From Tsukamurella sp. TY48 (GTDB taxonomy: Bacteria; Actinomycetota; Actinomycetes; Mycobacteriales; Mycobacteriaceae): 64,000 nucleotides of DNA. Positions 1-16,435 of this stretch are shown here, in pieces. The notes under the pieces are model-generated. The model saw only the letters and a list, made by a program, of their open reading frames with translations. It did no database searches and was not told where the DNA came from. How positions within the stretch are numbered: the stretch's first letter is position 1; each line of letters begins with the position of its first letter. Made by a program: the position numbers and the translations under genes. The stretch is from contig NZ_BPMV01000002.1 of the NCBI RefSeq assembly GCF_019656655.1, positions 868,001 to 932,000 on the forward strand, written 5' to 3'.

Positions 1-755
1 GTGACCCGCGGGTCGCCGGTGCCCACCAGCTCGACGTTGGTGAGCGAGAGGCCGGCGTTGTGATCTGCGCCGGACCCGAGGATGCTGATGCGGTTGTTGG
101 CGAACTTGCACGCGGTGACGTAGTTCTGAATGCACTTCGTGGTGATGCCCACCCCGAAGTTGTTGATGTCGGAGTTGATGAAACTGGTGCCGCCGGTGTT
201 CTCCTCCATCACCACACCGCGTTGGCCGTGGAAGCGCGGCGCGGTCTCGGCGTTGTGCTCTCCGCGGAGGGTCACCGCATCGAAGGAGCAGCGGAACGAA
301 TTCGCGAGCTGCACCGCTGTCGCCTTCACGCCGGTCAGGTGGAAACCCATGCGGGAGAAGGCCACGCGGTGCCTGTCGCGGAGCGTGATGAGCGTGCCCT
401 CGCCGTCGTACACCACCGTGCTGAGGTCGGCACCGGCACCGATGATCGTGGTGAAATCGGGGAGGTCGGGAAAGCGGGTCACGCGGTAAGCGCCCGGCGG
501 CACGTAGATGGGGGCTTTGCCCGCGGCTGCGCGGACCGCCGCATCGAAGGCGGCGGTGGCATCGGCCTTCCCGTCCCCGACCGCCCCGTAGGAGGCGATG
601 CTGATCCGGCCGTCGGGCCCGGGGTCGACGGGGGTCGGGGGCTCGGCGGACGAGCGACAGGCGGCGGCGGTCGTGGCGGCCGCACCAACCCCCAGGCCCA
701 AGAGGAGGCGTCGGCTCAGAACTCCTTCGCGTCCTTCGGCCTCGTCCTCACCCAC
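1..755 (-). CDS. Right-handed beta-helix (pectate-lyase-like) Tat lipoprotein, 3' end cut by window
   Basis: Partial: the gene starts at a GTG at 755 and runs off the left edge. The N-terminus has a twin-arginine motif (SRRLLLGLG), a hydrophobic stretch and a lipobox-like AAAC, so it is probably exported by Tat and lipid-anchored. It continues with SIASYGAVGDGKADATAAF, the usual opening of Pectate_lyase_3 / parallel beta-helix proteins, followed by repeated short strand-turn units (residues about 50-250). This fold often binds or cleaves polysaccharides. Its start overlaps the stop of the upstream hydrolase gene by 8 bp, making it the last gene visible in the polysaccharide operon. A role in trimming or modifying the secreted glycan is inferred from context; the substrate is unknown. 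Confidence 0.75.
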   Translation of the reverse strand, partial: MGEDEAEGREGVLSRRLLLGLGVGAAATTAAACRSSAEPPTPVDPGPDGRISIASYGAVGDGKADATAAFDAAVRAAAGKAPIYVPPGAYRVTRFPDLPDFTTIIGAGADLSTVVYDGEGTLITLRDRHRVAFSRMGFHLTGVKATAVQLANSFRCSFDAVTLRGEHNAETAPRFHGQRGVVMEENTGGTSFINSDINNFGVGITTKCIQNYVTACKFANNRISILGSGADHNAGLSLTNVELVGTGDPRV

Positions 756-2505
756 GATCGCTCCCGACGGTCCCCCGGTCGCTGCACCACTGCAGCACCG
801 TTTCCGCGACCGCCGCGCGGACATCGGCGTGGTAGGCGGGGTGATCGCCGAATTCGGTGGATACGATGTCGATTCGCGGGGCGGGACTGCGCCGGTTCAG
901 GCTCCGGAGGCCCTCCCCACCGCGCTGTCCGGTGAACCACTCGGCGTCCGGCGGCGCCAGGACCACCGTGGTGTGCACATCAGCGTCCGCCAGCGGGCGC
1001 AGGAGGACCTCCGGCACCTGGGTGATTCCCGCGATACCGAGGAGGCGCCAGGCCGGGTACGGAAGCCGGGACTGCAGCAGGGCCTTCACCCGCCCGCGGA
1101 ACGAGCGTTGGAAGGCGGGATCGGACCGCGGCACCCCCTGCGCGTCCGGGCCATCGGCATTGCGCAGCGCGCGTTTGGTGCGCCACGACCAGATCACGGG
1201 GTTGACGAGAACCGCTGCGTCCAAACGGGATTCCCGCCCGAGATGCGCCGTCAGCCAGGAACCCGAGCACACGCCGACCGCGGCCAGTCCCGCCGAGTCC
1301 GGATCGGCGGCGGCCGCGGCGGTATCGGCGTCCTCGCGTGCCTCCTCCGAGTAGCCGTGCGCGCGTTCTCCGCGGAGCACCACCCCGGACTCCCCCGCGC
1401 CCCGGCGATCGAAACGCACCGCCACCACACCGGTTCCGGCGACTCTGCGTGCCAAGCGCACCCACTCACGGTTCGGGCCGTGGTGGGTGTCATTGGCCGT
1501 CGCGAAGAACAGCACGCCGGGCGTCGCGTCCCCTGCCGATTCCGATGCGTGCCCTGGGGGTGTCGTCCGAATGCTGAACAGTGAATGGGGACCGAGGTAT
1601 TCGATGCTCTCGGTCACCTCGCCGCCCGCCGGGTCACGCAGGCGCGCGGTCCGGCGGATCGGTGGGTCGACGGGGACCTCCGGACCGGTGGCGGCGGTAT
1701 CGAGCCAGTCGGTGATCGCGTCGATGGCGTCGTCCGGGATGCGCACGAGGTAGTCGGGGGGCTGGACGTACTCGGCCATGTGCTCGACGTCGAGGCGGTC
1801 CGCGTCGACCGCCGTCGCGAAGGCCTCGACTTTGCGGTCGCCGCCTCCCGGCCGGGTCGCCACCAGCCATCGGCCACCGGTGCCGACCCTCTCCGGATCC
1901 AGGCGCAGCCCGGACAGGGCCGCGGCCGCGGTCTCCGACAACGTGGTCCCGATGAGCGGCACGGAGCCGGACACCGATCGGTCGTCTGCGCCGACCGTCA
2001 TCAGGTACAGGGCCCGTTGCTCGCGGAGGAAGGCCCGCCCGGAGGAGACCGGATCCCACAGTACGACCGGCCCCGTCTCGTGTCCCTCGGTCAGCGCGCG
2101 GGCGGCCATCAGGCAACCGGCCCGGAGCCCGACGACGGCGGGCGGCCCGGCGTTCAGCTCGCGCAGGTAGGCCAAGCCCGTACGACAGCTCGCCGCCCAC
2201 TGCTCGACGGCGTCGTCACCGTCTTCGGAATGCGCGGAATCCCCGGTACCGAGGTAATCGATACGGAGGACGGCGAGCCCCCGGTCGGCCAGTTGTGCGG
2301 CGAGCCTCCGCATTCCACGGGTCGCATCGAACTGCTCCTTCGCGAGCGAAGGGAGCAGCAGCACCGATCCCCGGGCGCGGCCCGAGGCGGGCAGATGGAG
2401 CACACCGAAGACCGCATCCGGATCCGTTCCCAGGTAGGTGTGCACCTCGCGGTGCGAGACGGGGCCAGCGGCGGCACGATCGTCGGTGCGCTGCTCCTCG
2501 GTCAC
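748..2505 (-). CDS. Protein with two tandem alpha/beta-hydrolase domains, polysaccharide-cluster associated
   Basis: About 585 residues in two alpha/beta-hydrolase halves. The first (to about residue 270) has the strand-turn order VLLLPSLAKEQFD, LRIDYLGTGDS and GLRAG, where Arg sits at the usual nucleophile position (about 128). The second (about 300-570) has FFATANDTHHGPNREW, RFDRRGAGES and GVCSG, with Cys (about 412) at the nucleophile position, and a late GDHPAYH that could supply the His. Similar hydrolases occur beside exosortase/exopolysaccharide loci. I prefer the GTG at 2505 because AAGGAG lies 8 nt upstream; a GTG at 2514 would instead overlap the wzz-like stop by 4 bp. Possible jobs are deacylation or thioester hydrolysis in the pathway, but the substrate is unknown. 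Confidence 0.7.
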   Translation of the reverse strand: MTEEQRTDDRAAAGPVSHREVHTYLGTDPDAVFGVLHLPASGRARGSVLLLPSLAKEQFDATRGMRRLAAQLADRGLAVLRIDYLGTGDSAHSEDGDDAVEQWAASCRTGLAYLRELNAGPPAVVGLRAGCLMAARALTEGHETGPVVLWDPVSSGRAFLREQRALYLMTVGADDRSVSGSVPLIGTTLSETAAAALSGLRLDPERVGTGGRWLVATRPGGGDRKVEAFATAVDADRLDVEHMAEYVQPPDYLVRIPDDAIDAITDWLDTAATGPEVPVDPPIRRTARLRDPAGGEVTESIEYLGPHSLFSIRTTPPGHASESAGDATPGVLFFATANDTHHGPNREWVRLARRVAGTGVVAVRFDRRGAGESGVVLRGERAHGYSEEAREDADTAAAAADPDSAGLAAVGVCSGSWLTAHLGRESRLDAAVLVNPVIWSWRTKRALRNADGPDAQGVPRSDPAFQRSFRGRVKALLQSRLPYPAWRLLGIAGITQVPEVLLRPLADADVHTTVVLAPPDAEWFTGQRGGEGLRSLNRRSPAPRIDIVSTEFGDHPAYHADVRAAVAETVLQWCSDRGTVGSDRG

Positions 2506-2510
2506 CTCCG

Positions 2511-3806
2511 TCACTCCTTGGTTCCGATCGGAAGCCGCTGCCACCAGGGGTTCGACTTCGCCGCGACGACGGTGTGCCCGGCCCGGGAGGGCTCGTTCAT
2601 CCCGAGGGCGCGGCGGTACCCGTCCGGCGATCGCGTGCCCAGGCGCGCCACCACCAGGCGCACCCTCTCGTCCAACCGCGCCGGGGATTCCGCCGGCACG
2701 CCGCCGAGGATCACGTAGTCGAAACCCGCGCCGAGCGTGCGCACCACATCGTGCGCGCGTGGTGACAGGAGGCGATCGGACACCGTCGAATCGGCTGCGT
2801 CCCCGGATCGAGCCCCGGACGGGAGCACCGCCACCGTGCCCGCCTCCGGCGCCAGGGTCCGGGAAACGCTCTGCGCGCCGTCGACGCCCGCGGCCAACGC
2901 AGCGCGCAGGCTCGGCTCCGCTCCGCCCGACGCGTCACCCGCCGACGCCGAGGCGGCGGAGGCGGGTCCCACCGCACGGCAGTCGATCAGCAGCACAGCG
3001 GAATCGGTGTCGGCCAGATCCTCGGCGAGGGTCTGCGCCATCGGCCAGGCGTCACCGTCGACCGCCGACACCAGAATCGACACACCGGTCCCCGCCGAGG
3101 CGGCACCGGCGGCCGCGACGACGGTATCGCGCACCGCGACGCCGTTCTCGGCGCGCACGACCGGGACGCCGAGGTCGTCGCCCAGTTCGCCGGCCGTCGC
3201 GACGCGCGGACGAAGCCTGATCAGGACGAAGGCCGCGGCGCACCCCAGGAGGACACCGACCGCGAGACCCGCGGCGCCGTACTTCGACACCGGGGCAACC
3301 GATGCGACGGCCCCGGATCCGTCCGTCACGGGGAGCAGCCGCACCCACGGCGGCAACCCGGGCCTCGGGAGTTCGAGTTCGGACACCTCGCGAGCCAGTT
3401 GGCGTGCGGTCTCCCCCGCCAGCCCCTGCGCGATCACGTCGGACGGGTGGGTCGCCGTGAACTGCAGCAACAACGTCCCCGGGGCGAAGGTCACCTTCAC
3501 CTGGGCGGCGATCTCCTCCGGACTCATCGTCAGCTGCAGCGCTTTGGCGACCTCGGCGGTGATCTTCGGGGAGGTGCCGAGCTCGGCGTAGGTGGCCATC
3601 CGGGCCTGGGCGGCCTGGACCGAGTTGTACATGTCGCCGCCCGAAGTGCCGGAGTTGTTCACCACCACGTAGGACTGCGCCGTCGCGGTGTACACGAGGG
3701 GCCTGGACTGCGCGTACCCGACGCCGAGGACCGTTCCGGCGACCGCGCAGATCAGGACGAGCCACCACCCTCGCCGCACGAACTGGGTGACGTCACGGAG
3801 CGTCAC
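2511..3806 (-). CDS. Wzz-type polysaccharide chain-length protein with degenerate kinase-like domain
   Basis: 431 residues. A membrane segment (WWLVLICAVAGTVLGVGYA) near residue 15 opens a Wzz domain with a periplasmic-type stretch (YTATAQSYVVVNNSGTSG; PEEIAAQVKVTFAPGTLLL). A second membrane segment (AAGLAVGVLLGCAAAFVLI) is followed by a cytoplasmic Rossmann-like half. Actinobacterial relatives often fuse Wzz to a tyrosine-kinase-like ATPase. Here VLLIDCRA resembles the Walker A' strand, but no GxxxxGK[ST] P-loop is visible, so ATP use is doubtful. The GTG start (3806) overlaps the polymerase stop as TAGTG. Probable role: setting chain length or assisting export together with the Wzy-like and Wzx-like proteins of the same operon. 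Confidence 0.75.
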   Translation of the reverse strand: MTLRDVTQFVRRGWWLVLICAVAGTVLGVGYAQSRPLVYTATAQSYVVVNNSGTSGGDMYNSVQAAQARMATYAELGTSPKITAEVAKALQLTMSPEEIAAQVKVTFAPGTLLLQFTATHPSDVIAQGLAGETARQLAREVSELELPRPGLPPWVRLLPVTDGSGAVASVAPVSKYGAAGLAVGVLLGCAAAFVLIRLRPRVATAGELGDDLGVPVVRAENGVAVRDTVVAAAGAASAGTGVSILVSAVDGDAWPMAQTLAEDLADTDSAVLLIDCRAVGPASAASASAGDASGGAEPSLRAALAAGVDGAQSVSRTLAPEAGTVAVLPSGARSGDAADSTVSDRLLSPRAHDVVRTLGAGFDYVILGGVPAESPARLDERVRLVVARLGTRSPDGYRRALGMNEPSRAGHTVVAAKSNPWWQRLPIGTKE

Positions 3807-5287
3807 TATGGGATTCCTTTCGGTACGGCCGCAAGAACCGGAGCGGCGACTCCGGGGCCGGGGTTCGACGGCGGACTCCCGCATTCGGACCGCATGCCTG
3901 CCTCGCCCCCACTGGCCTCGGCGTGCGCACCCCGTGCGCGCTGGCGATCTTGCGCACCCAGGATACGGATGAACCATACGACTGCAAAGACCGCGGTGGC
4001 GAGCACACACTGCTGCAGTCCCTTCCCCGCGACCTCCGAAATGCCCAGCGCGCCGCGCTCGAACAGGGCGGGCAGTGCGACGAAGACCACCCCCATGGTG
4101 AGCACCGGGACGGATCGTCCCCGCAGGCACCGGGATACCGCGCACACGGCCAGCAGCACGAGGATCGATTCCACGAGGACACCCGACGTTCCGCCGATCC
4201 GGATCCCCTCGTTGATGTGCCCTTCCGCCAGCGAGACCTGCACGCCCGACATGTCGACGGAGCTGGCGCGCACCCGCTCCGCCCAGTCCGGCCCGGCGAG
4301 CTTCTTGTCGACACCGAGCTGCGCGGGAATCAGGTTCAGGGGCATCCGGAGCAGGACATCGGAGATATCGAGATAGCCGGGCCCCCGGTAGAAGGTGTTG
4401 TCGGTGGCGGCCTCGAACAGGTCGAACCGCCGGATCAGCGGCAGGAGCGGCCCCCACGCGGGCGGATACGGCGCATCGATGCCCGAGGTCAGGTGCGCGG
4501 TCGTCGCGCCGACCTTGAGGCCCTGGAGCGCGCCGAAGACGCCCACCGCACCGATCCCGCCGACCGCGAGCAGTACGGCGCGCATCTTCGTGAATCCGGT
4601 GAGGAGCAGGCGCACCGTGACCGCCATCAGGGCACCCATGAAGGGGGTCTTCGACGACTGCACCACCCCCCACGCGAACTCGCCCCCCACCAGGACGGCG
4701 ATCGCGACGGCGTTCCACCGTGGCGAATCCAGTCGCAGGTAGAGGATGAGGGCCGCGGCGCCGATGGCTCCCATCCCGGTGAAGATGGACAGGTAGGGAT
4801 TGGCTGCGGCGACCTCACCGGCGCGACTCACGGTGCCGGTGAGGTACGCGAAACCCCTGGCCGCCAGTCCCACGCACCACAGCACGACGAAGGTGGCGAT
4901 CACGGCGGCCGATTGCTTCGGCAGGTCCGCGTCGGGCCGCCGGTCCGGCGGTTGGAGGCGTTGGAACAGGACGAAGGCGGCGACGCAGGCAACGTAGATC
5001 CAGAGCCCCGAGGTGACCGGCGGGAGCACCTGGGCGATGCCGCGGTCGTATCCCGCGTGGAAGAGCCGCGTATCGGCGATGTTGTCGCCGAACGACGGTG
5101 TCGGCGTGGCCACCAGCAGCAGGACCGGGCGCGCGATGAACGAGATCGTCCAGTACGCCGATTGGATCAGCAGCAGCACCCGCGGGGCGCCGCGCCCCGC
5201 CGCAGCGACCAGGGCCAGCGCGATCAGGGGGATCGCGGTCTGCACGATGCTGCCCCACCCCGGGGTGACCTCAGCCCAGGGCGGCAT
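3806..5287 (-). CDS. Polytopic membrane protein, probable Wzy-type polysaccharide polymerase
   Basis: About 493 residues with ten or more hydrophobic segments (for example TAIPLIALALVAAAG, IYVACVAAFVLFQ, AAVIATFVVLWCVGLAA) and a large hydrophilic loop near residues 270-350 (RRFDLFEAATDNTFYRGPGY and LAEGHINEGIRIGG). This layout is typical of O-antigen or exopolysaccharide polymerases, whose sequences diverge too far for a motif call. The position between a glycosyltransferase and the Wzz-like gene supports it. The ATG at 5287 overlaps the upstream stop by 17 bp; a GTG at 5245 is an alternative start. The alternative function would be another polytopic glycan enzyme such as an O-antigen ligase. 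Confidence 0.65.
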   Translation of the reverse strand: MPPWAEVTPGWGSIVQTAIPLIALALVAAAGRGAPRVLLLIQSAYWTISFIARPVLLLVATPTPSFGDNIADTRLFHAGYDRGIAQVLPPVTSGLWIYVACVAAFVLFQRLQPPDRRPDADLPKQSAAVIATFVVLWCVGLAARGFAYLTGTVSRAGEVAAANPYLSIFTGMGAIGAAALILYLRLDSPRWNAVAIAVLVGGEFAWGVVQSSKTPFMGALMAVTVRLLLTGFTKMRAVLLAVGGIGAVGVFGALQGLKVGATTAHLTSGIDAPYPPAWGPLLPLIRRFDLFEAATDNTFYRGPGYLDISDVLLRMPLNLIPAQLGVDKKLAGPDWAERVRASSVDMSGVQVSLAEGHINEGIRIGGTSGVLVESILVLLAVCAVSRCLRGRSVPVLTMGVVFVALPALFERGALGISEVAGKGLQQCVLATAVFAVVWFIRILGAQDRQRARGAHAEASGGEAGMRSECGSPPSNPGPGVAAPVLAAVPKGIP

Positions 5288-6275
5288 GGATCTGTTCCGC
5301 CCGATCGCGATAGGTGTGGCCGCCCTCGACGATTCTGCGGTGGCCACGCGCGGCGACCGCGGCGGCCTCGTCGGGAGCTGCGGCGCAGCGACGCAGGATC
5401 TCGGCGAGTTCCTCGTGGCTGTCGAAGAGGTAGGCCTCCCGGCCGTCGTCGAACAGCGCCTCGTGCTCGACGGTGCGCTCCCCCACGACGAGTCCGGCGG
5501 CCGCGGGGACCTCGAAGGTCCGGCAGGTGTGGGTGTCGCGGTTATCGGAGTTGAGGAGCACGAGGTTGGCGCCGATCGTGGCGATCGCGGCCGAGAGTTC
5601 CTCGCCGTACTGCGGGCCGGCGATCCGGGCGCCACTGGTCCTGGCTCCGAGATTCCGCCGCCAGCCGGGGCCCGCCAGGTAGAACCGGTCACCCAGTTCG
5701 CCCGCGAGTTCGATCAGGAATTCGGTGCGGTCGGGCCGCATCGCGCCGATGAATCCCGCGTCGTACCGGACGGGGCCGCGCCGTGCCACGGGGCGGTGCC
5801 AGGCGGGGTCGTAGGCGCTGAAGACGTGGATCACCCGGGCCACGCCGCGGGCGTCCAGTTCGGGCACGTTGTGCGCCTTGGTGGTGACCACCGCGTCCCA
5901 CTCGGCCTCCCGTTCGAGGTAGGCCGGCGTGGTGTTGTACGGATTCGTCACATCGTCCGCGCTGTAGTGCACCTTGACCGGCACCGGCAGGGACAGGAGC
6001 CGGGCCTGGTCGAGATGCACCGTCTTGTAGCAGAACAGGAGGTCGGGGCGCAGGGCGGCAACGCAATCCGCCAGTTCGCGGTGCACCCGGTCGACGGTGG
6101 CCGGCGAGCGCTCGCCGGTGCGTTTGGCGTACCACCACGCGGGCGTGCCGCGCGTCGGCACGGTCACGGCGGTGGTGTCGACGACGACGACCTCATGGCC
6201 CGCGGCCCGGAAGCCGTCGGCGAGGGAACGGGCATTGCTGCCGTACCAGTTGTCGCCCGCGAAGAGGATTCTCAT
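5271..6275 (-). CDS. CgeB-like GT-B glycosyltransferase
   Basis: 334 residues. The opening MRILFAGDNWYGSNARSLADGF is the first Rossmann strand and loop of a GT-B enzyme. The middle has SADDVTNPYNTTPAYLE and VVTTKAHNVPELDARG, as in CgeB / DUF3880-type transferases. The C-terminal half has GFIGAMRPDRTEFLIEL and the donor-site region NSDNRDTHTCRTFEVPAAAG, followed by GERTVEHEALFDDG. It probably adds one sugar to the lipid-linked repeat unit in the cytoplasm. The ATG start overlaps the flippase stop as ATGA. The sugar donor cannot be read from the sequence. Confidence 0.8.
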   Translation of the reverse strand: MRILFAGDNWYGSNARSLADGFRAAGHEVVVVDTTAVTVPTRGTPAWWYAKRTGERSPATVDRVHRELADCVAALRPDLLFCYKTVHLDQARLLSLPVPVKVHYSADDVTNPYNTTPAYLEREAEWDAVVTTKAHNVPELDARGVARVIHVFSAYDPAWHRPVARRGPVRYDAGFIGAMRPDRTEFLIELAGELGDRFYLAGPGWRRNLGARTSGARIAGPQYGEELSAAIATIGANLVLLNSDNRDTHTCRTFEVPAAAGLVVGERTVEHEALFDDGREAYLFDSHEELAEILRRCAAAPDEAAAVAARGHRRIVEGGHTYRDRAEQIHAALG

Positions 6276-7513
6276 ACCGGTGTCTCCTCCGCAAGGGTCG
6301 GCGCGACTCCTCGACGGCGCAGTACCTCCGCGCGGACGAGATAGAAGGTGGCCGCGGCGGTCTCCGCGAGCGCGATGCCGACGACGAGCGTCATCGGTGC
6401 GTGGGTCTGGAAGGCGACGCCGAGCGTGATGAAGGCGACCACTGCACCGGTCGCCGCACCGGCCACCACGCCGATCTTGTCGCTGAGCACCGGCAGGACC
6501 GCGGTCGCGACGAAGGAGGCCACCGCCATCCCCGGCAGCGACCATGCCCCGACCTGGAGCAGGGGTACCGCGTCGATGAACTCGGCCCCGAACAGGATCG
6601 GAACGATCCACGGCGCCAGCACCGTCAGCATCAGGGCGGCGAGCGCGCCGAGTCCGGCCACCACCAACACCATGCGCCGGACCACTCCCCAGAACTCGGC
6701 GCCGATGCGTTTGCGATCGGCCATCCGCGGCAGCAGGGTCCAGCCGACCGCGTCGAGCAACGAACCGGTCGCCTGCACCGGCCGGTCCGAGGCGCTGAAG
6801 AGGCCGATCGCCTGCCGCGGCAGTGCACCGGCGAAGAGGGCCGCAGCTCCCTGCTCGTACGAGTTCTCGAGCATCCGGGCCAGCAGCACCGGAGCCCCGA
6901 GCCGATACAGGTCGCCGAGTTCGCGGGGGCGCCCCGGCGGGCCCAGTTCGCGCCACGCCCAGACCCACGACCAGCACACCGGCACCAAAGACGAGGCGAT
7001 CATGCACAGCACCGCCACGTGTGCGGTGGGCCGGATCGGTAGCAGCGCCACGAGCAGGAGCAGGTACAGCGCGCGCCCCACGGACTGCTGCACCAGGATC
7101 ACACCGAATCGCTTCATGCCCAGCTGAACCCAGTCCTCTCCGGCGGCGCTGATCGCGCCGCCGAACAGCCCGAGCGTGGCGATGTTGAGCAGGTCGGATG
7201 TGGAGAACAGATGCGTCGCCGCGCAGAGTCCGCCGAGGAGCGCCACCATCGTGCCGCGCATCACGCCGTAGGCGCCGCGCAGCTCACTGAGCCCGGGGTC
7301 GCCGATCCGGGCGGCGAGGAAGGCGGTGATGCCCTGGTCGGTGACGAGCGCACCGAGGAAGAAGGTCGACAGCGCCACTGTCAGAAGGCCCATCCCGTAC
7401 GGGCCCAGCAACCGGGCGCACAGCGGGAGCGTGATGAGGGTGATGAGGTACTGGCCGTACTTCCCGAACGAGACGAGCGCGACGTCGCGCATCACGCCCA
7501 CTGCGCCCTTCAT
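6272..7513 (-). CDS. Wzx-like polysaccharide flippase (MOP superfamily)
   Basis: 413 residues with about 12 hydrophobic segments. The start reads VALVSFGKYGQYLITLITLPLCARLLGPYG in short overlapping pieces, the usual first helix of MOP/Wzx flippases (residues about 10-40, with the LLGPYGMG turn). Later parts include LYRLGAPVLLARMLENSYEQG and IVPILFGAEFIDAVPLLQ, also typical of the family. It would flip undecaprenyl-linked repeat units across the membrane for the Wzy-like polymerase encoded two genes downstream. Its start overlaps the preceding glycosyltransferase stop as ATGA, and its stop overlaps the next gene's start, so translation is probably coupled. Confidence 0.82.
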   Translation of the reverse strand: MKGAVGVMRDVALVSFGKYGQYLITLITLPLCARLLGPYGMGLLTVALSTFFLGALVTDQGITAFLAARIGDPGLSELRGAYGVMRGTMVALLGGLCAATHLFSTSDLLNIATLGLFGGAISAAGEDWVQLGMKRFGVILVQQSVGRALYLLLLVALLPIRPTAHVAVLCMIASSLVPVCWSWVWAWRELGPPGRPRELGDLYRLGAPVLLARMLENSYEQGAAALFAGALPRQAIGLFSASDRPVQATGSLLDAVGWTLLPRMADRKRIGAEFWGVVRRMVLVVAGLGALAALMLTVLAPWIVPILFGAEFIDAVPLLQVGAWSLPGMAVASFVATAVLPVLSDKIGVVAGAATGAVVAFITLGVAFQTHAPMTLVVGIALAETAAATFYLVRAEVLRRRGVAPTLAEETPV

Positions 7514-8652
7514 CGGGGCCGCCGTCCGTCGAGCGTCCGGTGGATCAGATGCGCCGCCTGCTCCGCGGACGCATCGATGCCGAAGTCCTCGGCGCGCGCC
7601 GCGGCTCTGTCGGCGAGCCGGGTCCGCAGGTCCCGGTCGTCGATCAGCCGGTCGATCGCCGCGGCCAGCAGCACAGGATCACCGGTCGGGACGAGAACCC
7701 CGTCGACACCGTCGTCGATGATCTCGGTGGGGCCTCCGCTCGCCGCGGCGATCACCGCGCAGTGGGCCGCCATCGCCTCGACGACCACCTGGCCGAAGGG
7801 CTCGGCGAGGCGAGAGAAGTGAATCACCACATCGGCGGCGGCGGCCTCGGCGAGCGGCTCGGAGACATTGCCCACGAAGGCCACGCGCTCGCCGAGTCCC
7901 AGCTCGGCAGTCCGCCGGCGCAGCTGATCGGCGTACTCGTGCTCGCCGAAGAGCGTGCCGCCGACGAATCGGACGGCACTCTCGGTACGCGTCCTCGCGA
8001 GGGCCTCGAGCACGAGGTCCTGTCCCTTCCACGGCGCCAAGCGACCGAGCATCAGCACGCGCGCTTCGTCGGGTGCGCGCTGCGGCGCACCGCCCGGCAC
8101 GGAGGCCAGGTCGACGCCGGGGTAGACGACCGCGGCCGGCCGGCCGCCGGTCCACAGGGTGTCGCGGGTGGTGCGGCTGTTCGCGATGAATCCCCGGGCG
8201 ACGCCGCGGCCCAGGGCTCGCAGGATGAGGGCGACGGGACCGAAGTAGTCGGGGCTGATGCGATCGTGCACGTGCCAGATCAGCGGGATCCCGGCGCGGC
8301 GGGCAGCGACCGTTCCCATCAACAGCGCTTTGGTCGACTCGGCGAGCACGGCCTCGGCGCCCGCTGCCCGCAGGACGCCGCCGATGCGCCATCCGGCCCG
8401 CACCATCCGCGCCGCACCGGAGATCCAGCGCAACCGGGATCCGGCGATCGACACGGATGAGCTCGCGAATCCTGTGTCGACCACAGTCGCCTCGACGCCC
8501 GCATCCGCCAGGATCTGTTGCAGGGGGCCTGCTTCGGTGAGCACCGCGAGCGGCTCGATCCCGTGCTGCGGGAACCGCCGGGCCATGCGGGCCCAGGCGA
8601 GTTCGGCGCCCGACGGTGCCGCGGAGTGCGAGAGCAACGCCACCTTCGTCAT
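7510..8652 (-). CDS. GT4-family glycosyltransferase
   Basis: 380 residues, GT-B fold. The N-terminal half shows LLSHSAAPSGAELAWARM, IWHVHDRIS and GFIANSRTTRDTLW. The C-terminal half has VYPGVDLASVPGG, VLMLGRLAPWKGQDLVLEA and RVAFVGNVSEPLAEAAA. The E-x7-E donor-binding region reads SRLAEPFGQVVVEAMAAHCAV. These are the classic GT4 (Glyco_transf_1) motifs. It probably extends the repeat unit on the cytoplasmic face. It starts with an ATGA overlap on its upstream neighbour and has the same coupling downstream. Specificity is unknown. Confidence 0.88.
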   Translation of the reverse strand: MTKVALLSHSAAPSGAELAWARMARRFPQHGIEPLAVLTEAGPLQQILADAGVEATVVDTGFASSSVSIAGSRLRWISGAARMVRAGWRIGGVLRAAGAEAVLAESTKALLMGTVAARRAGIPLIWHVHDRISPDYFGPVALILRALGRGVARGFIANSRTTRDTLWTGGRPAAVVYPGVDLASVPGGAPQRAPDEARVLMLGRLAPWKGQDLVLEALARTRTESAVRFVGGTLFGEHEYADQLRRRTAELGLGERVAFVGNVSEPLAEAAAADVVIHFSRLAEPFGQVVVEAMAAHCAVIAAASGGPTEIIDDGVDGVLVPTGDPVLLAAAIDRLIDDRDLRTRLADRAAARAEDFGIDASAEQAAHLIHRTLDGRRPR

Positions 8653-9725
8653 CGCACCAGGCTCCGGTACAGCTGCACGTGCCGGTCGGCGCAGCGCTGC
8701 CAGGTGAACTCCTCGGCATGCCGGCGGCAGGCGTCGACGTCCGGCCGGTCGCCCTCGAGCGCGCGCACCAGCCGATCCGCCAGCGCGCCCTCATCGAGCG
8801 CGGGTACCACCAGGTCCGGCGCCAGCCCGACCACCGAATCCGGAAGGCCTCCGACGTCGGTGACCACCGGCGCCCGTCCCGCGGCGAGGGATTCGAGCGC
8901 GACCAGGCCGAAACCCTCGAGCGATCGGGTGGGGACCGCGGTCACCGTGGCGGCGCCGTACGCGGCTGCGAGTTCGGCGTCGGAGACCGCGCCGTGCAGC
9001 CGGACCGAGTCGCTGAGCCGCAGGTCGCTCACGAGCCGCGCGAGCTCCGCGCCCTGCGAACCCGTGCCGACGATGTCGAGCCGCGCGTCGGGCAGGGCGG
9101 CCAGGACCGCGGGCCAGGACCGGATCAACACGTCGATTCCCATGCGCCGTTCCAAGCGGCGCACAGTCAGCACGCGGGGACGGCCGTCCGGAATCGGAGT
9201 GGGGCGGAACCGATCCAGATCGGCGCCCGGTGGAATCACCACCACGTCCTCGGGCGGCACACCGTAGGTCGAGACCAGGACATCGGCGAAGTACTGCGAC
9301 AGTACGACGATCGCTGCAGAGCGCCGGTATCGAACCCACTCCCAGGCCCGTTTGGCCTGTACCGCAGCGGGGCTCGCACCGGAGGCGGCGCTCTCCAATG
9401 CCCACGGACCGTGGAAATGCGTCACCAGCGCCGAATGCCCGCGCGCCGGACCGTAGGGCGCGAAGTGCCGATCGAGCACATCGGCATCGCGGCCGGCCGA
9501 GCTGGCGCGCGCTCGCGTGAGGAGGTTGCCCTCCGGCGGGCCCCAGCTGCCGCCGCCGGGTTCGGCGTCACCGAAGGCGTCGGCGCTCACCTCGACGTCC
9601 GCGCGCGCCCGCAGGGCGGCGAAGAGGCTCGCGAAGTAGCTCGGGATGCCGCCACGACTGGTGCGCGGCCATTCGGCGCCCGCCATGTGCACCGTGAGCG
9701 GATCGGAATTGCTCGTACCGCTCAC
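8649..9725 (-). CDS. GT4-family glycosyltransferase
   Basis: 358 residues from a GTG at 9725 that overlaps the stop of the condensation-domain gene (GTGA). The N-terminal part has EWPRTSRGGIPSYFASLF and LVTHFHGPWALES. The C-terminal part has VIPPGADLDRFRP, VLTVRRLERRMGIDVLIRSW, DIVGTGSQGAELARLV and the donor motif VPTRSLEGFGLVALESLA. It is a retaining GT4-type sugar transferase by motif. It is the first transferase downstream of the acyl- or aminoacyl-transferase-like gene, so both products may act on the same lipid-linked intermediate. Confidence 0.88.
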   Translation of the reverse strand: MSGTSNSDPLTVHMAGAEWPRTSRGGIPSYFASLFAALRARADVEVSADAFGDAEPGGGSWGPPEGNLLTRARASSAGRDADVLDRHFAPYGPARGHSALVTHFHGPWALESAASGASPAAVQAKRAWEWVRYRRSAAIVVLSQYFADVLVSTYGVPPEDVVVIPPGADLDRFRPTPIPDGRPRVLTVRRLERRMGIDVLIRSWPAVLAALPDARLDIVGTGSQGAELARLVSDLRLSDSVRLHGAVSDAELAAAYGAATVTAVPTRSLEGFGLVALESLAAGRAPVVTDVGGLPDSVVGLAPDLVVPALDEGALADRLVRALEGDRPDVDACRRHAEEFTWQRCADRHVQLYRSLVR

Positions 9726-11515
9726 GATGTGGCCTTCGCACCCGGACCGGTGAACCGCAGCCGGACCTCGTTGGGGCAGGCCGCGCGCAGCACGTCGGGG
9801 AGATCGTCGGGTGCATCGGCGCTCACCGTGACCACGGCCCGGACCGGCGGGCCCACGGTGATCCGGACATCGTCGACGTGGTCCCCGCGCAGGATGTGCC
9901 GTATCTCGCCGAGTTCGACGAATCCGCCGTGGACGCGCACCCGCTCGGCTCCGGTCCCGCGGTACACGCACCCCGATTCGGTGAGCTCCACCCGATAGTC
10001 GGTCGGCACCGCACCGTGCTCGGTGAGCAGGGTGACCCAGCCCGCGCTGCCGAACAGCGCCGGATCACCGAGATCGGTGGTCACCGTCATCCCGTACACG
10101 CCGTTCTGTCCGCCCGCACGCGCCAGCTCGACGGCGTCGGTCGGAGCACCCCACACCGGTTCTGCCGCATCGGCGTTCGGCGCGAGCTCGAGCGTCACGC
10201 CGGGCGTGCCGGCGAGCGCGCGGTGCGCCTGCGCCTCGGCCGGTGTCAGGGCACTGATCTCGCTGAGCGGGCGATCCGGTGCGCCGGCCGTGGCATCGAG
10301 CCACCGGGCGAGCCGGTCGGCATGCGTCCGCGCCCGCACCGGCGAATACAACTGCGGGTTGAACTCCGTGAACAGGATGAGGTCGCCCGCTCCGGTCTGC
10401 GTGATGACCACCGAGACGTCGCTGACCGGACCGTAGCCGTGGACCCGGGTGTTCCACTTCTCGTTCTCGGGGTCCGGCCGCAGGAAGGGGATCACGTTCA
10501 CGGTGGGCCCGTACAGCCTGCCCGCGCGGATCGCGCCCGGCATCGATTGGAACAGCTCTCGAGTGTCGACGCGGCCGCGGCCGGCACGCGTGATCCCCGC
10601 CGAGACCTGATTCGCGAGTTCGGCGCCGGTCGCCGTCTCGCTCACGTCCAGCCGGATCGGCACCACGTTGGTCATCGTGACCGCGGCGGCGCGCTCGCGC
10701 TGGTTCAGCCGGTTCACCATCACCGAGCCGATGATCGACCGCCGGTTGCCGGTGTAGCGCGCGCAGTACGCGCCGACCAGCCCGAGGAGGTGGTGCGGCC
10801 ACTGCCGCCCGGACGGAGTGATGTGGAGATCGTGACGAAAGGTGACGGGATCGGGAGCCATCGCCGCCGTCGCGGAGGTGAGTGACAGCTGCGGGTTCGC
10901 CCAGCCCTCGGTGGACAGCAGGGACGACCACATCTCCAGGTCCACCGGGAAGGGTTCGCGGTTCGCGAGCAACTCGTCGACCTCGACGAACTCGAAATGC
11001 TCCGGTTCGCGTCCCGCCAGCAGGGCCACATAGACCTTGGCGAGGCGATTGCGGAACAGGGCGGCGGCGTAGCCGTCGAGGACGGCGTGGTCACCGAACA
11101 TGGCGTATCCCACCCGGCCGTCCACCTCGACCGTCCATTGTTCGCCCAGCGCAGTACCGTCCAGCAGGTAGGGCTTCCGGAACCGCTCGTTCCCCCATGT
11201 CAGGAATTCGCCCTCGGACGCGAAGGTGAGGTGTCCGCGAAAGGGCAACGGGCCGTAGTCGACCTGTAGGTTCGCGCCCTCGGACAGGATGCGCAGGCCC
11301 AGGCTGCGGCACTCGTCGGTGGTGCGGTGCAGCGCCTCGGTGAACACCGCCAGATCGGCGCCCGCGGGCAGCAGCGACGAGGTGCCGATCGTCATCAGCG
11401 AGGTACCCGGTGCGTCATTGCGGCCCCGCACGAAATTCATCTGTTCCGGGAGCAGCCTCACCGCGCCAGAATAGCCGACGGCGGGCGCATCGCCGGGGTC
11501 GAATCGCGAGGTCAC
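9722..11515 (-). CDS. Free-standing NRPS-type condensation protein with vestigial adenylation C-subdomain
   Basis: 597 residues. Residues about 15-430 form a chloramphenicol-acetyltransferase / condensation-like pair of lobes, with the active-site motif as DHAVLDG (H143, D147, G148) and later VMVNRLNQRERAA and PTVNVIPFLRP. After a linker of the C-to-A type (ISALTPAEAQAHRAL), only about 100 residues separate it from RVRVHGGFVELGEI (525-538), which strongly resembles the A8 motif of an adenylation-domain C-terminal subdomain. The A core with its ATP and amino-acid pockets is absent. It starts GTGA-overlapped with a glycosyltransferase, two genes from a carrier protein and three from an amino acid:carrier ligase. 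I infer transfer of a carrier-bound aminoacyl (or acyl) group to a sugar. Confidence 0.75.
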   Translation of the reverse strand: MTSRFDPGDAPAVGYSGAVRLLPEQMNFVRGRNDAPGTSLMTIGTSSLLPAGADLAVFTEALHRTTDECRSLGLRILSEGANLQVDYGPLPFRGHLTFASEGEFLTWGNERFRKPYLLDGTALGEQWTVEVDGRVGYAMFGDHAVLDGYAAALFRNRLAKVYVALLAGREPEHFEFVEVDELLANREPFPVDLEMWSSLLSTEGWANPQLSLTSATAAMAPDPVTFRHDLHITPSGRQWPHHLLGLVGAYCARYTGNRRSIIGSVMVNRLNQRERAAAVTMTNVVPIRLDVSETATGAELANQVSAGITRAGRGRVDTRELFQSMPGAIRAGRLYGPTVNVIPFLRPDPENEKWNTRVHGYGPVSDVSVVITQTGAGDLILFTEFNPQLYSPVRARTHADRLARWLDATAGAPDRPLSEISALTPAEAQAHRALAGTPGVTLELAPNADAAEPVWGAPTDAVELARAGGQNGVYGMTVTTDLGDPALFGSAGWVTLLTEHGAVPTDYRVELTESGCVYRGTGAERVRVHGGFVELGEIRHILRGDHVDDVRITVGPPVRAVVTVSADAPDDLPDVLRAACPNEVRLRFTGPGAKATS

Positions 11516-12627
11516 AGCGACTCCACCACGGTTCGCATCTGCTGGCGGAACCGCTTAGGGCAGAAGCTTTCCGCCCTGGCGCGGATCACCTGCGGATCGA
11601 ACGACTCGTCGCGGAATCCCGACATCGCGGCGGCGAATCCGGCGACGACGCCGTCGTCGTCGCTCGGTGGGACCAGCACGCCGGTCACGCCGTCGATCAC
11701 CGAATCGAGCACGCCGCCCTCACCGAGCGCGATGACCGGGGTGCCGCACGCCATGGCCTCCACGGGCACGATCCCGAAGTCCTCGACTCCCGGCATCAGC
11801 ACCGCCCGCGCGCGCTGCATGAGCTGCACCATGCGTGCATCGTCGACCCGCCCCACGAACGTGGTCTCGGGGCCGGCGAATTCGCGGCACCGTTGCTCCC
11901 ACCGGCCCTCGCCCGCCACGATGAGGCGGACCCCGGCGGCCCGCGCCGCGCGTACTGCAAGGTCGGCGCGCTTGTAGGGCACCAGCCGGCCCGCCATGAG
12001 GAAGTAGTCCTCCCGCTCCCCCGCGGGCCCGGTACTGAATCGGGTCACGTCGACGGGCGGATGGACGACCTCGGCCTCGCGGCCCCACCACTGTTCGATC
12101 CGGCGGGCCACCACACTCGAGTTCGCCACGATCCGGGTGAAGCTCGGCGCCGCGGCTCTCTCGACGGCGCGGGCCTGCTTCGCCAGCAGGGCCAGCGCCA
12201 GGCGGCCGGCCGGCGAATTCGCCTCACCCGCCCGGAGGGTCGAGTCCCAGGCCCAGCGCGCGGGCGAGTGCACATAGCCGACGGTCGGCACGCCCACCGT
12301 CGGCGCGGCGGCTGCTGCCAAGGCGAAGTGACTGATCACCACGGCATCGACATCGCCGACGTCGACCCCGCGAAGAGCAGCGGGGGCCAGGGGCATCAGC
12401 GGCGCGTGCGAGCGGAGGCCGCCGGCCCGGTACGCCCGGTACAACCGATCGAGCCGCGTCGCGCGAAGCCGGCCCGCGAGCTCGACCGGCACGATCGCGG
12501 GATCGGCGAACGGGACGTACACGGGCGCATCGGGCCACTCCCGGAGCAACTCCTCGATGACGGACTCCGCGCCCCCCATCTCCGTCCACCGCTCGTGGAC
12601 GATCGCGATCCGCGATCCCGAACTCAC
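11512..12627 (-). CDS. GT4-family glycosyltransferase
   Basis: 371 residues. RIAIVHERWTEMGGAESVIEEL is the glycine-rich first strand seen in WbaZ/WcaI-like GT4 enzymes (residues 6-27). It continues with VGYVHSPARWAWDS, ARSFTRIVANSS-like text (FTRIVANSSVVARRIEQWW), VVHPPVDVTRFS, LMAGRLVPYKRADLAV and the donor-site segment PGVEDFGIVPVEAMACGTPV. HSPARWAWD resembles mannosyltransferases that use GDP-mannose, but I would not assign a donor from that alone. Its GTG start overlaps the carrier-protein stop (GTGA), so the two are probably made at a fixed ratio. Confidence 0.88.
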   Translation of the reverse strand: MSSGSRIAIVHERWTEMGGAESVIEELLREWPDAPVYVPFADPAIVPVELAGRLRATRLDRLYRAYRAGGLRSHAPLMPLAPAALRGVDVGDVDAVVISHFALAAAAAPTVGVPTVGYVHSPARWAWDSTLRAGEANSPAGRLALALLAKQARAVERAAAPSFTRIVANSSVVARRIEQWWGREAEVVHPPVDVTRFSTGPAGEREDYFLMAGRLVPYKRADLAVRAARAAGVRLIVAGEGRWEQRCREFAGPETTFVGRVDDARMVQLMQRARAVLMPGVEDFGIVPVEAMACGTPVIALGEGGVLDSVIDGVTGVLVPPSDDDGVVAGFAAAMSGFRDESFDPQVIRARAESFCPKRFRQQMRTVVESL

Positions 12628-12860
12628 GCTCGGAGCCCGTCGATCATCTCGGTCAGCGCGCCGAGCGATCCGAAGGTCTCCTTCTTGAGTAGCCGATCAG
12701 GGATCTCGATATCGAACTCGTCCTCGATGGCGACCATGACGGCCACGCTGGCGTGCGAGGTCATTCCGAGTGCGTAGAGATCGTCGTCCGTAGCGATGGA
12801 GTTCGCATCCACGGCGAGCTTGCCGTATTTGCCGAGAATGGAGCGCAGCGTCTGTTCCAC
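12624..12860 (-). CDS. Small carrier protein (phosphopantetheine-dependent), partner of aa:CP ligase
   Basis: 78 residues, the size of a free-standing acyl carrier protein. The attachment serine is most likely Ser35 in ALGMTSHASVAVMVAIEDEF; the usual D-S-L is replaced by T-S-H, like the G-[LM]-T-S type found in carrier proteins served by atypical seryl-tRNA-synthetase homologues. The third helix reads FDIEIPDRLLKKETFGSL. Start GTG at 12860 has a purine-rich AGAGGGGG about 10 nt upstream. It is the first gene of the coupled run that ends at the beta-helix gene. It should be converted to the holo form by a phosphopantetheinyl transferase not present in the window. Confidence 0.85.
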   Translation of the reverse strand: MEQTLRSILGKYGKLAVDANSIATDDDLYALGMTSHASVAVMVAIEDEFDIEIPDRLLKKETFGSLGALTEMIDGLRA

Positions 12861-13059
12861 GGCGCACGACCCCCTCTGATCGATTGTGCCGACAGTGAAG
12901 TATTGCTACATGGGTTGCCCATCCGGGCGACCAGTCATGTCAAGCTACACCAGCGTCACGAAGATACGCGATGCGATCGCAACGAGTCGCCGCGGTGTGC
13001 GCACGGGCCCTCCGTCGGTGACCACAACCCCTGCACGGACGCGCACGTCGGACCGGTGA
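12861..13059 (-). promoter_or_regulatory. 199-bp gap before the carrier-protein/polysaccharide genes, probable promoter region
   Basis: This is the only sizeable gap in the minus-strand run between the amino acid:carrier ligase and the carrier-protein gene. It contains a perfect TTGACA on the minus strand (12938-12943), but I see no good -10 at 16-19 bp from it. A 13-bp dyad (ATGGG-TTG-CCCAT, 12910-12922) lies between the TTGACA and the gene and could be an operator. The region is noticeably less GC-rich near 12895-12945 than its surroundings. Whether transcription starts here or reads through from upstream is open. Confidence 0.35.
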
Positions 13060-13956
13060 TCACACCCACGACGGGGTCACACCGTGCGTGCGCACCATCG
13101 CCAGGACGATCCGTTCGATCCCGAAGCCCACGCACGAGCTGTGCGCCGGCGCGCCGTCGGACTGGAGGATGTCGAACCTCTGTCCGAAGTGATCCTGGTG
13201 GTTGTTGCAGGAGGCGACGGCGGTCGCGGGGTTGTCCGGCCCGTACAGCGGTATCACCAGTTCCGTCTTCAACGCCTGGTCGAGTTGGTTGGCCTTGAGC
13301 ATCCTTCCGGCCCGACCGAAGAACGGATCGTTCGCCGTTTCGGGCCGCACATCCAGTCCGAGATCGCTCAGCACCGCGGTGGCGCGGCGGATCCACTCGT
13401 CGGCGTGCTCCACGGCCTGCGCGGCATCGCCGACCCGCACGTAGTCGTGCGCGCGGAAGGCCTGCATGCGGAGGGGGTCGATCGCGGGCTCGCGGCGGAA
13501 GCAGTACCCGTAGACGTCCAACAGGGCGCCCTCGGACGGCAGCGTCCCCGTGAGCGTCGGATAGGCCGGCTGACACGCTGCCGAGACCAGAGCGACCCCG
13601 GACGGGCTCAGGTGCCGCTCCCACCCCAAGCCCTCCTCCCGGTCCGCCAGGAGGGCCCGGTGCTCGGGATCGCCGCCGTCGAAGGAGTGGACGCTGCCCG
13701 CGAGATCGGGGAACGAGGCGACGTAATCGGTCCGGTCGAGCGTCTCGCTGGGGAAGACCGGAGGAAACCGCAGGGTGCGGGGCCGGGTGGCGAAGGCCGC
13801 AGCGGCTTCGGTCGACACCCGCGCATCGATCTTCGCGACCACGGCTTCGAACTGCTCACTTCGGCCGTAGAGGCCGTCCATCCCGGTGGGGACGAGCCAG
13901 TCGTGCGCGATCAGGTCGTCGCGGAACCGGCGCCGCGCCTCGTCCAAGCTCGACAT
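13060..13956 (-). CDS. Amino acid:[carrier protein] ligase (atypical seryl-tRNA synthetase homologue)
   Basis: 298 residues, a class II aminoacyl-tRNA-synthetase catalytic core without the tRNA-binding coiled coil. Motif 2 is YCFRREPAIDPLRMQAF (151-167), with the DPLRMQAFR segment typical of this family; motif 3 is VGFGIERIVLAMVRTHG (276-292). Cys128 (ACQPAYPT) and Cys275 (SSCVGFG) match two zinc ligands described for the Bradyrhizobium glycine:CP ligase. The third ligand, Glu there, aligns roughly with Asp171 here. Family members adenylate a small amino acid (Gly or Ala) and load it on the phosphopantetheine arm of a small carrier protein rather than on tRNA. The matching carrier is the next gene downstream. 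The stop lies 199 bp before the carrier-protein start. Confidence 0.88.
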   Translation of the reverse strand: MSSLDEARRRFRDDLIAHDWLVPTGMDGLYGRSEQFEAVVAKIDARVSTEAAAAFATRPRTLRFPPVFPSETLDRTDYVASFPDLAGSVHSFDGGDPEHRALLADREEGLGWERHLSPSGVALVSAACQPAYPTLTGTLPSEGALLDVYGYCFRREPAIDPLRMQAFRAHDYVRVGDAAQAVEHADEWIRRATAVLSDLGLDVRPETANDPFFGRAGRMLKANQLDQALKTELVIPLYGPDNPATAVASCNNHQDHFGQRFDILQSDGAPAHSSCVGFGIERIVLAMVRTHGVTPSWV

Positions 13957-13966
13957 CGGGGGCCGG

Positions 13967-14416
13967 TTAGAAGACTGCCATCGCCACGATCAGGCCGAGG
14001 GCCACGTGGCAGGCGGCGATCACGCGGGCCTGCGGCAGGAAGACGTCCGCGTGCATGAGCTCGTCCAGGTCCACACCGGTCACCAGGTCCAACACCCGCA
14101 CACACACGATCTGCGCGATGATGCCCACCAGGCCGTAGATGAGCGCGTAGGTCACGCCCTCCACGAGGCGACCGCCCGCGGCGTAGATCGCCACCACGAT
14201 GATGAAGGCCATCGAGAGCATGCCCGCGGCGGTGATGTAGGTGGCATTGGGCTTGCCCGCCTTCACCAGCTCACGCAGCTTGCCCGGGGTCGACAGGTCG
14301 ACCGCGTAGAAGCCGACGACCATGAGGACGAGGCCCACGAGCGCGTACAGGCAGATCGCGCCGATACCGCGGCCGATCGTGTTCAGCTGCACATCGGCGA
14401 GGAGTGTCACGTTCAC
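13967..14416 (-). CDS. DUF350 membrane protein (YjfL-like)
   Basis: 149 residues with about four membrane segments, organised as two similar helical pairs (AICLYALVGLVLMVVGFYAVDL and YALIYGLVGIIAQIVCVRVLDL, each within one half). This is the DUF350 layout of E. coli YjfL. The GTG start overlaps the stop of the ATP-grasp gene (GTGA). DUF350 proteins are regularly encoded with a glutathionylspermidine-synthase-like ATP-grasp enzyme, as here; their function is not established. The next gene, 10 bp downstream, is the amino acid:carrier ligase. Confidence 0.82.
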   Translation of the reverse strand: MNVTLLADVQLNTIGRGIGAICLYALVGLVLMVVGFYAVDLSTPGKLRELVKAGKPNATYITAAGMLSMAFIIVVAIYAAGGRLVEGVTYALIYGLVGIIAQIVCVRVLDLVTGVDLDELMHADVFLPQARVIAACHVALGLIVAMAVF

Positions 14417-15609: not shown

Positions 15610-15619
15610 TCGCCGCACG

Positions 15620-16432
15620 TCAGGACCCGCCGGACTTGGAACCACCGCTGGAGCCGCCCTTGTTGGACGTTCCGAGGCCACCGCGATCGATGTTCTTGCC
15701 TCCGTTGTTGCTGTTGCCCGCGTTCGTGCCGCCCTTGTTCGAGCCGCCCGAGTTCGCCGCCGGCGGTGGGGGCTTGCTCCCCGCGTTCGACTGACCGCTG
15801 TTGTTGAACGAGGTGGCCTTGCCCGGATCCACGGCCGCACCGGACTGCGTGCGGAAGTTGGTGTTCGCGGGCCGGTCGTAGGAACCGCCGACGACGCGGC
15901 CGTTCGCGACGGCGCCGCCGTAGTTGTACCGGTAACTCATGCCGTTGAGCAGAATGAAACCCGTGACGGGGTTGTATGTTCCGGACGAGCAGTAGTTGTC
16001 GGAGACGACCTGTCCGTCGACGGTGCAGTAGGCCGTCTCGGTGCGGGCCGGCACGGAGCCGCCGTTGTCGTCGGGAATGGCGGCGTACAGCAGCGCGATG
16101 GTGCCGACGACGCCGACGCCGACGCCCGCGCCGATCATCTGCTTGCGGCGGCGTGCCTTCTTCGCGAGCGCCTCGGCTGCCTCACGGGCCTGCTGCTCCT
16201 GCTCCTGGACGCGCTGGCGCTGCGCCCGGGTACGGGCGCGGGCCTCGGCCACGGTCTCCGGGCGGGCGCGTGTGGTCTCGTCCTGCTGGCGCATCCGGCC
16301 GGGGCGCCGGGGCTCGTCGACGGTGTCCGGCAGGGACACGGTCGGCGGCATGCCGGGCACCGGAGGCAGATAGTTCGACTCCGGCCCGGGGATGTCTCCC
16401 ACCGGCCTGTTCTCAGGGACGGGCGGCTGCAT
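15620..16432 (-). CDS. YgiB/DUF1190-like single-pass membrane protein with Gly/Asn-rich tail
   Basis: 270 residues. A proline-rich N-terminus (1-45) is followed by a charged helical region with coiled-coil character (about 50-95: RAQRQRVQEQEQQAREAAEA) and one membrane segment (GAGVGVGVVGTIALLYAAI). The extracytoplasmic part has YCTVDGQVVSDNYC, two Cys that could form a disulfide, and YRYNYGGAVANGRVVGGSY. The tail of about 70 residues is almost only Gly, Ser, Asn and Lys. Position with DUF350 and a YgiC-like ATP-grasp gene matches the E. coli yjfL-yjfM-yjfC set, where YjfM is a DUF1190 protein. Homology here is inferred from layout more than sequence. Confidence 0.6.
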   Translation of the reverse strand: MQPPVPENRPVGDIPGPESNYLPPVPGMPPTVSLPDTVDEPRRPGRMRQQDETTRARPETVAEARARTRAQRQRVQEQEQQAREAAEALAKKARRRKQMIGAGVGVGVVGTIALLYAAIPDDNGGSVPARTETAYCTVDGQVVSDNYCSSGTYNPVTGFILLNGMSYRYNYGGAVANGRVVGGSYDRPANTNFRTQSGAAVDPGKATSFNNSGQSNAGSKPPPPAANSGGSNKGGTNAGNSNNGGKNIDRGGLGTSNKGGSSGGSKSGGS

Positions 16433-16435
16433 CGC

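Follow-up and report, generated by a model that had tools for sequence, protein, structure and literature searches.

Indications for aminoacylation of a Wzx-exported surface glycan in Tsukamurella by a tRNA-synthetase-derived ligase, a carrier protein and a free-standing condensation protein

The stretch of 64,000 nucleotides analysed here (Tsukamurella sp. TY48, assembly GCF_019656655.1, contig NZ_BPMV01000002.1, positions 868,001 to 932,000; hereafter the window) encodes an amino acid:[carrier protein] ligase, a small carrier protein and a free-standing condensation-family protein, designated COND, amid genes for glycosyltransferases and a Wzx-type flippase. It is somewhat more probable than the alternatives taken together that the ligase charges the carrier protein and that COND transfers the aminoacyl group to a sugar of the surface glycan exported by Wzx. 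The three genes are open reading frames:

13060..13956, minus strand: amino acid:[carrier protein] ligase with a class II synthetase core, 298 amino acids (NF005479, PDB 4h2w)
12624..12860, minus strand: carrier protein, 78 amino acids, phosphopantetheine Ser in GMTSH (PF00550 40.9 bits; NF005480 100.3 bits)
9722..11515, minus strand: COND, free-standing condensation-family protein with a tail of about 165 amino acids (PF00668 50.9 bits; xHxxxDG motif)

These positions agree with the first-pass annotation, which is to be corrected in that a glycosyltransferase gene (11512-12627) sits between the carrier-protein gene and the COND gene.

In the first step, which is known for the ligase family, the ligase would adenylate an amino acid and load it onto the phosphopantetheine of the carrier protein. 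Going by reviews of the family, Gly or Ala would be the most likely amino acid. COND, acting in the cytoplasm, would then take the aminoacyl group from the carrier protein and attach it to a sugar through an amine or a hydroxyl group, the acceptor being a nucleotide sugar or a lipid-linked glycan. Wzx would finally flip the glycan, which in the window strain would also be polymerised. COND would in this way stand in for the DUF1839 protein of a more widespread gene cassette.

The ligase had been described as a seryl-tRNA-synthetase-like core that lacks the tRNA-binding arm and retains the Cys residues of its family, and this description was borne out. The protein matched NF005479 (amino acid--[acyl-carrier-protein] ligase) with 406.9 bits (cut-off 357), and residues 21-294 of 298 align with the Bradyrhizobium structures 4h2w (E 1.9e-62) and 3mey. 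Because the alignment with 4h2w spans this range, no room is left for an N-terminal tRNA-binding arm. Both Cys residues (Cys128 and Cys275) and the Arg of motif 2 are conserved in 69 of 69 aligned rows, window included. Residue 171 is Asp, where most relatives possess Glu; an Asp is seen there in 2 of 50 near rows and in 4 of 19 distant ones. The zinc ligands are presumably Cys, Glu and Cys, with Asp171 at the third-ligand position in the window ligase. The carrier protein was likewise found as annotated, with 78 residues and a G-M-T-S attachment site; it scored 100.3 bits against NF005480 (cut-off 72), and the Ser lies in GMTSH.

COND matched PF00668 with 50.9 bits (cut-off 30.6) and carries the motif DHAVLDG, which retains from HHxxxDG the second His and the DG, so that its designation as a free-standing condensation protein holds. 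Across all 12 aligned sequences, this catalytic His and the DG do not vary. By sequence, the closest PDB matches are condensation domains of non-ribosomal peptide synthetases (NRPS) and VibH, and the condensation fold is also present in the predicted structure, a low-confidence model. Compared with 13 other condensation domains, the CONDs (13 rows) form one side of a branch with a support of 87/88.

Sixteen Tsukamurella genomes were compared, that of the window being G000. The COND matches score at least 140 bits, and the next match in any of these genomes reached 48 bits. The ligase was detected in 15/16 genomes and COND in 13/16, and the glycosyltransferase encoded at 5271-6275, used as locus marker, occurred in the same 13. 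In each of them, COND and the ligase are 1.6 to 4.5 kilobases apart. Leaving aside G000 and G238, the loci of the remaining 11 COND genomes were fetched (L073, L074, L114-L122), and all of them contain the ligase, the carrier protein, a glycosyltransferase, an AcpS-type phosphopantetheinyl transferase (PPTase), a WcaJ-type transferase, a further glycosyltransferase and COND (in L115 the WcaJ match is in two pieces). The homologue of the glycosyltransferase 11512-12627 adjoins the carrier protein in every one. Wzx and the marker glycosyltransferase were found in ten of the 11 loci; in L115 the contig ends, and its glycosyltransferase is located on another contig. The same locus arrangement is given with database gene names in a record of T. 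tyrosinosolvens, where COND is annotated as a hypothetical protein. Co-conservation with glycan genes, which the first-pass annotation had named as a check on its idea, is thus found in the genus.

A role of COND as transferase is proposed because COND is present where DUF1839, a protein with a CcbD-like predicted fold, is absent. DUF1839 occurs in one of the 16 genus genomes and gave no match in the window genome; the ACAD and GH2-like genes that accompany it elsewhere gave no tblastn match in the window, and none of the three matched in the 11 fetched loci. Genome G406 (890 contigs) possesses the ligase together with DUF1839, ACAD and GH2-like genes and has no COND, so that the mutual exclusion of COND and DUF1839 in the genus is a matter of one DUF1839 genome against 13 COND genomes. 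In this indirect manner, the earlier suggestion that the condensation protein moves the aminoacyl group to the glycan is partly supported. As for the remaining genomes, G405 has neither ligase, COND nor DUF1839, and G404 (83% complete) shows a carrier-protein match and three frame pieces of a ligase but no COND. The region L124 ~9047-10500 of G404 looks like a remnant of the locus.

Among 397 genomes of the order, in 22 chosen ones of which COND was searched, the ligase was found in 52 and DUF1839 in 13, of which 12 also contain the ligase (p 9e-11, uncorrected for kinship). A double alpha/beta hydrolase, also encoded in the window, was detected in 43/397 genomes at E 0.001. With a lower limit of 85 bits, chosen after viewing the list, 20 genomes remain, 18 of them with the ligase (p 1e-15). 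Within the family, the hydrolase accompanies the ligase more constantly than any other neighbour and occurs in all 13 ligase-positive genomes. Plasmids of Azospirillum and Rhizobium carry the carrier protein, ACAD, ligase, DUF1839 and GH2, the two Azospirillum ones also an alpha/beta hydrolase. In G333 and G067, the DUF1839 cassette is part of one glycan locus together with WcaJ and relatives of the glycosyltransferases, Wzx, Wzy, Wzz and hydrolase of the window; the Wzy homologues share 43% identity with the window protein. The fold predicted for DUF1839 by modelling is that of CcbD (papain-fold type CcbD/CtaG/AziU3), the closest solved enzyme, and DUF1839 is likely the transferase of the widespread version of the cassette.

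The loci L064-L066 and L068 contain ligase, carrier protein, PPTase, hydrolase and WcaJ and neither COND nor DUF1839. A scan of six proteins of L064 and L068 gave no clear candidate for a third transferase: four belong to families above cut-off (an Ntn-type amide hydrolase, a beta-helix protein and two glycosyltransferases), and two matched none.

Several observations weigh against aminoacyl transfer by COND to the exported glycan. No aminotransferase or deacetylase was identified among the operon proteins scanned, which leaves a free sugar amine unexplained, so that an ester is possible. ACAD and GH2-like genes are absent together with DUF1839, and COND may therefore replace a route and not one step. 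Of the 52 ligase-positive genomes of the order, 40 lack DUF1839, COND having been sought in the 22 chosen genomes only, and both COND and DUF1839 are missing from G116, G166, G178 and G262, which have ligase, carrier protein, PPTase, hydrolase and WcaJ. The active sites of DUF1839 (Cys-Thr/Ser-His, from modelling) and CcbD (Cys-His-Glu) differ. A dedicated PPTase was not found at the window locus; the best match of the AcpS-type PPTase in the window genome, with 67 bits, is located elsewhere (L125, G000:C2:1082800-1083171) and has a stop inside the aligned frame. Furthermore, the window COND is just 28-31% identical to the other CONDs, whose support as a single group is moderate (87/88). Finally, the cluster L087, described below, resembles a small-molecule cluster and favours a product other than a polymer.

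It might be that the amino acid is attached to a small glycoside or glycolipid, similar to a lincosamide or an oligosaccharide lipid, which is made and exported by the glycosyltransferases and Wzx without any exopolysaccharide; we regard this as unlikely. Eleven of the 13 COND genomes lack the window Wzy, which occurs in 2/16 genus genomes, and the window Wzz was matched in none of the 11 fetched COND loci, although an unrelated Wzy would escape a query with that of the window. Wzz and a candidate Wzy are present in the loci of the window, G238, G333 and G067, and initiating transferases of the WcaJ type typically go with undecaprenyl-linked glycans. CcbD, on the other hand, acts in an antibiotic pathway, and L087 (4806-15666) pairs the ligase family and a carrier protein with two free-standing condensation proteins, a KAS-III-like protein, E1-dehydrogenase subunits and a PPTase. 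L087 is probably a natural-product cluster. No relatives of Wzx, Wzz or WcaJ were found in this stretch; judged by gene sizes, L084-L086 and L088 probably share its make-up, L087 alone having been scanned. It shows that the combination of ligase, carrier protein and free-standing condensation protein extends beyond glycan loci, and it supports the pairing of ligase and condensation protein as well as a small-molecule product. Its condensation proteins are, however, not detectably related to COND, which gave no match with them as tblastn query even at E 10.

A second explanation, which we consider quite improbable, is that COND is a lipid acyltransferase or some other acyltransferase of the condensation superfamily that uses acyl-CoA or another acyl-carrier protein, while ligase and carrier protein feed a different enzyme, for example the double hydrolase. 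Condensation-fold acyltransferases with other donors exist, e.g. the PapA proteins, and the hydrolase is the most constant partner of the ligase, being present in 13/13 ligase-positive genomes at family level, four of which have neither COND nor DUF1839. COND nevertheless has its best PDB matches in VibH and in the condensation domains of NRPS. Within the genus, no genome combines COND with DUF1839, and no G-x-S-x-G was found by pattern in the window copy of the hydrolase. Genuine non-ribosomal synthesis of a dipeptide or a modified amino acid in an incidental glycan-gene setting is very improbable: peptide-bond formation is the classical role of condensation domains and other condensation-domain genes exist in the window genome, but there is a single carrier protein among the operon genes, and the linkage to glycan genes is conserved in 13 Tsukamurella genomes as well as in G333, G067, G116, G166, G178 and G262.

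The proposed transfer of the aminoacyl group to a Wzx-exported glycan by COND can be compared with several known systems. Mocibob 2010 and 2013 reportedly dealt with the amino acid:[carrier protein] ligases of Bradyrhizobium. These ligases (4h2w, 3mey) belong to the same curated family and share the core, both Cys residues and the lack of a tRNA-binding arm, but the window ligase has Asp171 where most relatives have Glu, and its partner is COND instead of DUF1839, ACAD and GH2. The DUF1839 cassette, of a kind for which aminoacylation of a surface sugar was predicted in 2010 (PMC2922099), has the ligase, the carrier protein and the double hydrolase in common with the window, whereas the window locus lacks DUF1839, ACAD and GH2, possesses COND and is embedded in a Wzx glycan locus. 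Clusters of the L087 type, which come from the same taxonomic order, likewise unite the ligase family with a carrier protein and with free-standing condensation proteins; they differ in the missing Wzx, Wzz and WcaJ and in condensation proteins without detectable relation to COND. COND shares fold and catalytic motif with free-standing condensation enzymes such as VibH, a group that also includes PapA and streptothricin enzymes, but has an extra tail and, as predicted acceptor, the glycan of a Wzx locus.

In the Dlt system, DltA is an adenylation-domain (A-domain) enzyme. The D-alanylation of teichoic acid also combines an amino acid, a ligase, a carrier protein and a surface polymer, and transfer requires DltB and DltD, according to an excerpt of PMC12930378; neither the DltB (MBOAT) nor the DltD family was found among the operon proteins scanned. 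Lincosamide synthetase (LmbC/CcbC, carrier protein, CcbD/LmbD) likewise relies on stand-alone activation and a carrier protein, and a separate enzyme makes the amide of amino acid and amino sugar, as stated in excerpts of PMC4351081 and PMC12945683. It differs in its activation by an A-domain, in a papain-fold transferase in place of the condensation protein and in its small-molecule product.

An excerpt of a 2010 paper (PMC2922099) predicts that the ligase family aminoacylates the amino group of a cell-surface sugar, and we infer that Atu2574 is a DUF1839 protein; an excerpt of a 2022 review (PMC9437257) still calls the role unknown. The core idea of surface-sugar aminoacylation was hence already predicted in 2010, and the statement in the first-pass annotation that no pathway of exactly this make-up had been described overlooks this printed prediction. 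L087 also combines a ligase of this family, a carrier protein and free-standing condensation proteins. In the open-licence literature, weak evidence of absence, no paper was found that joins condensation domains, aminoacyl carrier proteins and polysaccharide, none of the looser matches listed was relevant by its title, and none of the matches listed mentions DUF1839 together with CcbD or LmbD. Within the papers searched, neither the COND variant in Tsukamurella nor the CcbD-like fold of DUF1839 seems to have been described before.

The further features of the locus are the following:

11512..12627, minus strand: GT4 glycosyltransferase, between carrier protein and COND (PF00534 93 bits)
8649..9686, minus strand: GT4 glycosyltransferase (PF00534 94.7 bits on the longer open reading frame 8649-9971; start from the gene caller)
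7510..8652, minus strand: GT4 glycosyltransferase (PF00534 120.9 bits)
6272..7513, minus strand: Wzx-type flippase (PF01943 53.4 bits)
5271..6275, minus strand: glycosyltransferase, locus marker (PF13524 102.9 bits)
3806..5287, minus strand: membrane protein, candidate for the Wzy polymerase (about 8 hydrophobic segments; place in the locus)
2511..3806, minus strand: Wzz chain-length protein (PF02706 39.5 bits)
748..2514, minus strand: double alpha/beta hydrolase, like exosortase-A-associated hydrolases 2 and 1 (TIGR03101 80.3 and TIGR03100 67.3 bits, both below the cut-offs)
3..755, minus strand: pectate-lyase-like protein, reaching the window edge (PF12708 48.8 bits)

The genes follow one another along the minus strand as GSP_synth, DUF350, ligase, carrier protein, glycosyltransferase, COND, two glycosyltransferases, Wzx, glycosyltransferase, candidate Wzy, Wzz, double hydrolase and pectate-lyase-like protein. 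The glycan setting described earlier stands as far as the glycosyltransferases, Wzx and Wzz are concerned, which were matched; the Wzy polymerase (3806-5287) gave no Pfam match and is proposed from its position and its hydrophobic segments. A tblastn search with a WcaJ-type protein gave no initiating sugar-phosphate transferase within the window. The term operon fits the genes from the carrier protein to the hydrolase, neighbouring ones of which overlap or almost touch, and fits the ligase less well, as it is separated from the carrier protein by 199 bases (12861-13059) and the two genes are divergent in the other Tsukamurella loci. This gap contains TTGACA; a consensus scan of 12600-16500, gap included, revealed no promoter-like site. 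Directly upstream of the ligase, 10 bases away, are the genes for GSP_synth (glutathionylspermidine-synthase-like) and DUF350 (13967-15609). They were set aside as members of the system, since, of the compared loci, those of the window and G238 alone have them linked to the ligase.

A second open ligase copy exists in the window genome (L061:9183-10163; G000:C2:117222-118100), which is 53% identical and adjoins a WcaJ-type transferase (L061:10543-11838) and a YdcF relative. It occupies the site where other Tsukamurella have the whole locus, and by eye its outer neighbours resemble those of L074. In the ligase tree, this copy groups with the other Tsukamurella ligases, whereas the window ligase remains unresolved in a clade of 41 rows, apart from the ligases of the other Tsukamurella COND loci. 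The window and G238 thus seem to harbour a second, diverged version of the locus, the old site being cut down to the ligase, the WcaJ-type transferase and YdcF. Distant Chloroflexota ligases were seen in L012, L013, L023, L026 and L028, each preceded by a protein of 69-83 amino acids, the size of a carrier protein; that in L012 is located near genes resembling, by eye, those of sialic-acid-type sugar synthesis.

The tail of COND (window 9722-10228, about 165 amino acids) contains one A8-like stretch (8k4r E 0.0074; 7thn E 0.015), which scored 11.6 bits where the highest of 2000 shuffles reached 7.9, and it resembles the tails of the other Tsukamurella CONDs (18.5 bits against 14.2, best of 5000 shuffles). 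An origin of the tail as relic of an adenylation domain is not claimed: a hidden Markov model built from two A-domain stretches matched nothing in COND, the profile-profile score of 15.95 is below that of the best of 60 column shuffles (18.48), no Pfam family was found in the tail, and its predicted structure is of low confidence.

The presence of COND where DUF1839 is missing within one genus, together with the CcbD-like fold predicted for DUF1839, points to a shared role, namely transfer of an aminoacyl group from a carrier protein to a sugar. There is about an even chance that surface glycans are aminoacylated by interchangeable forms of this system, one with a CcbD-like DUF1839 transferase and another, in Tsukamurella, in which a Wzx locus has captured an NRPS-type condensation enzyme that is fed by a tRNA-synthetase-derived ligase. 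If this is true, a single pathway would bring together machinery that stems from translation, from peptide synthesis and from glycan assembly.

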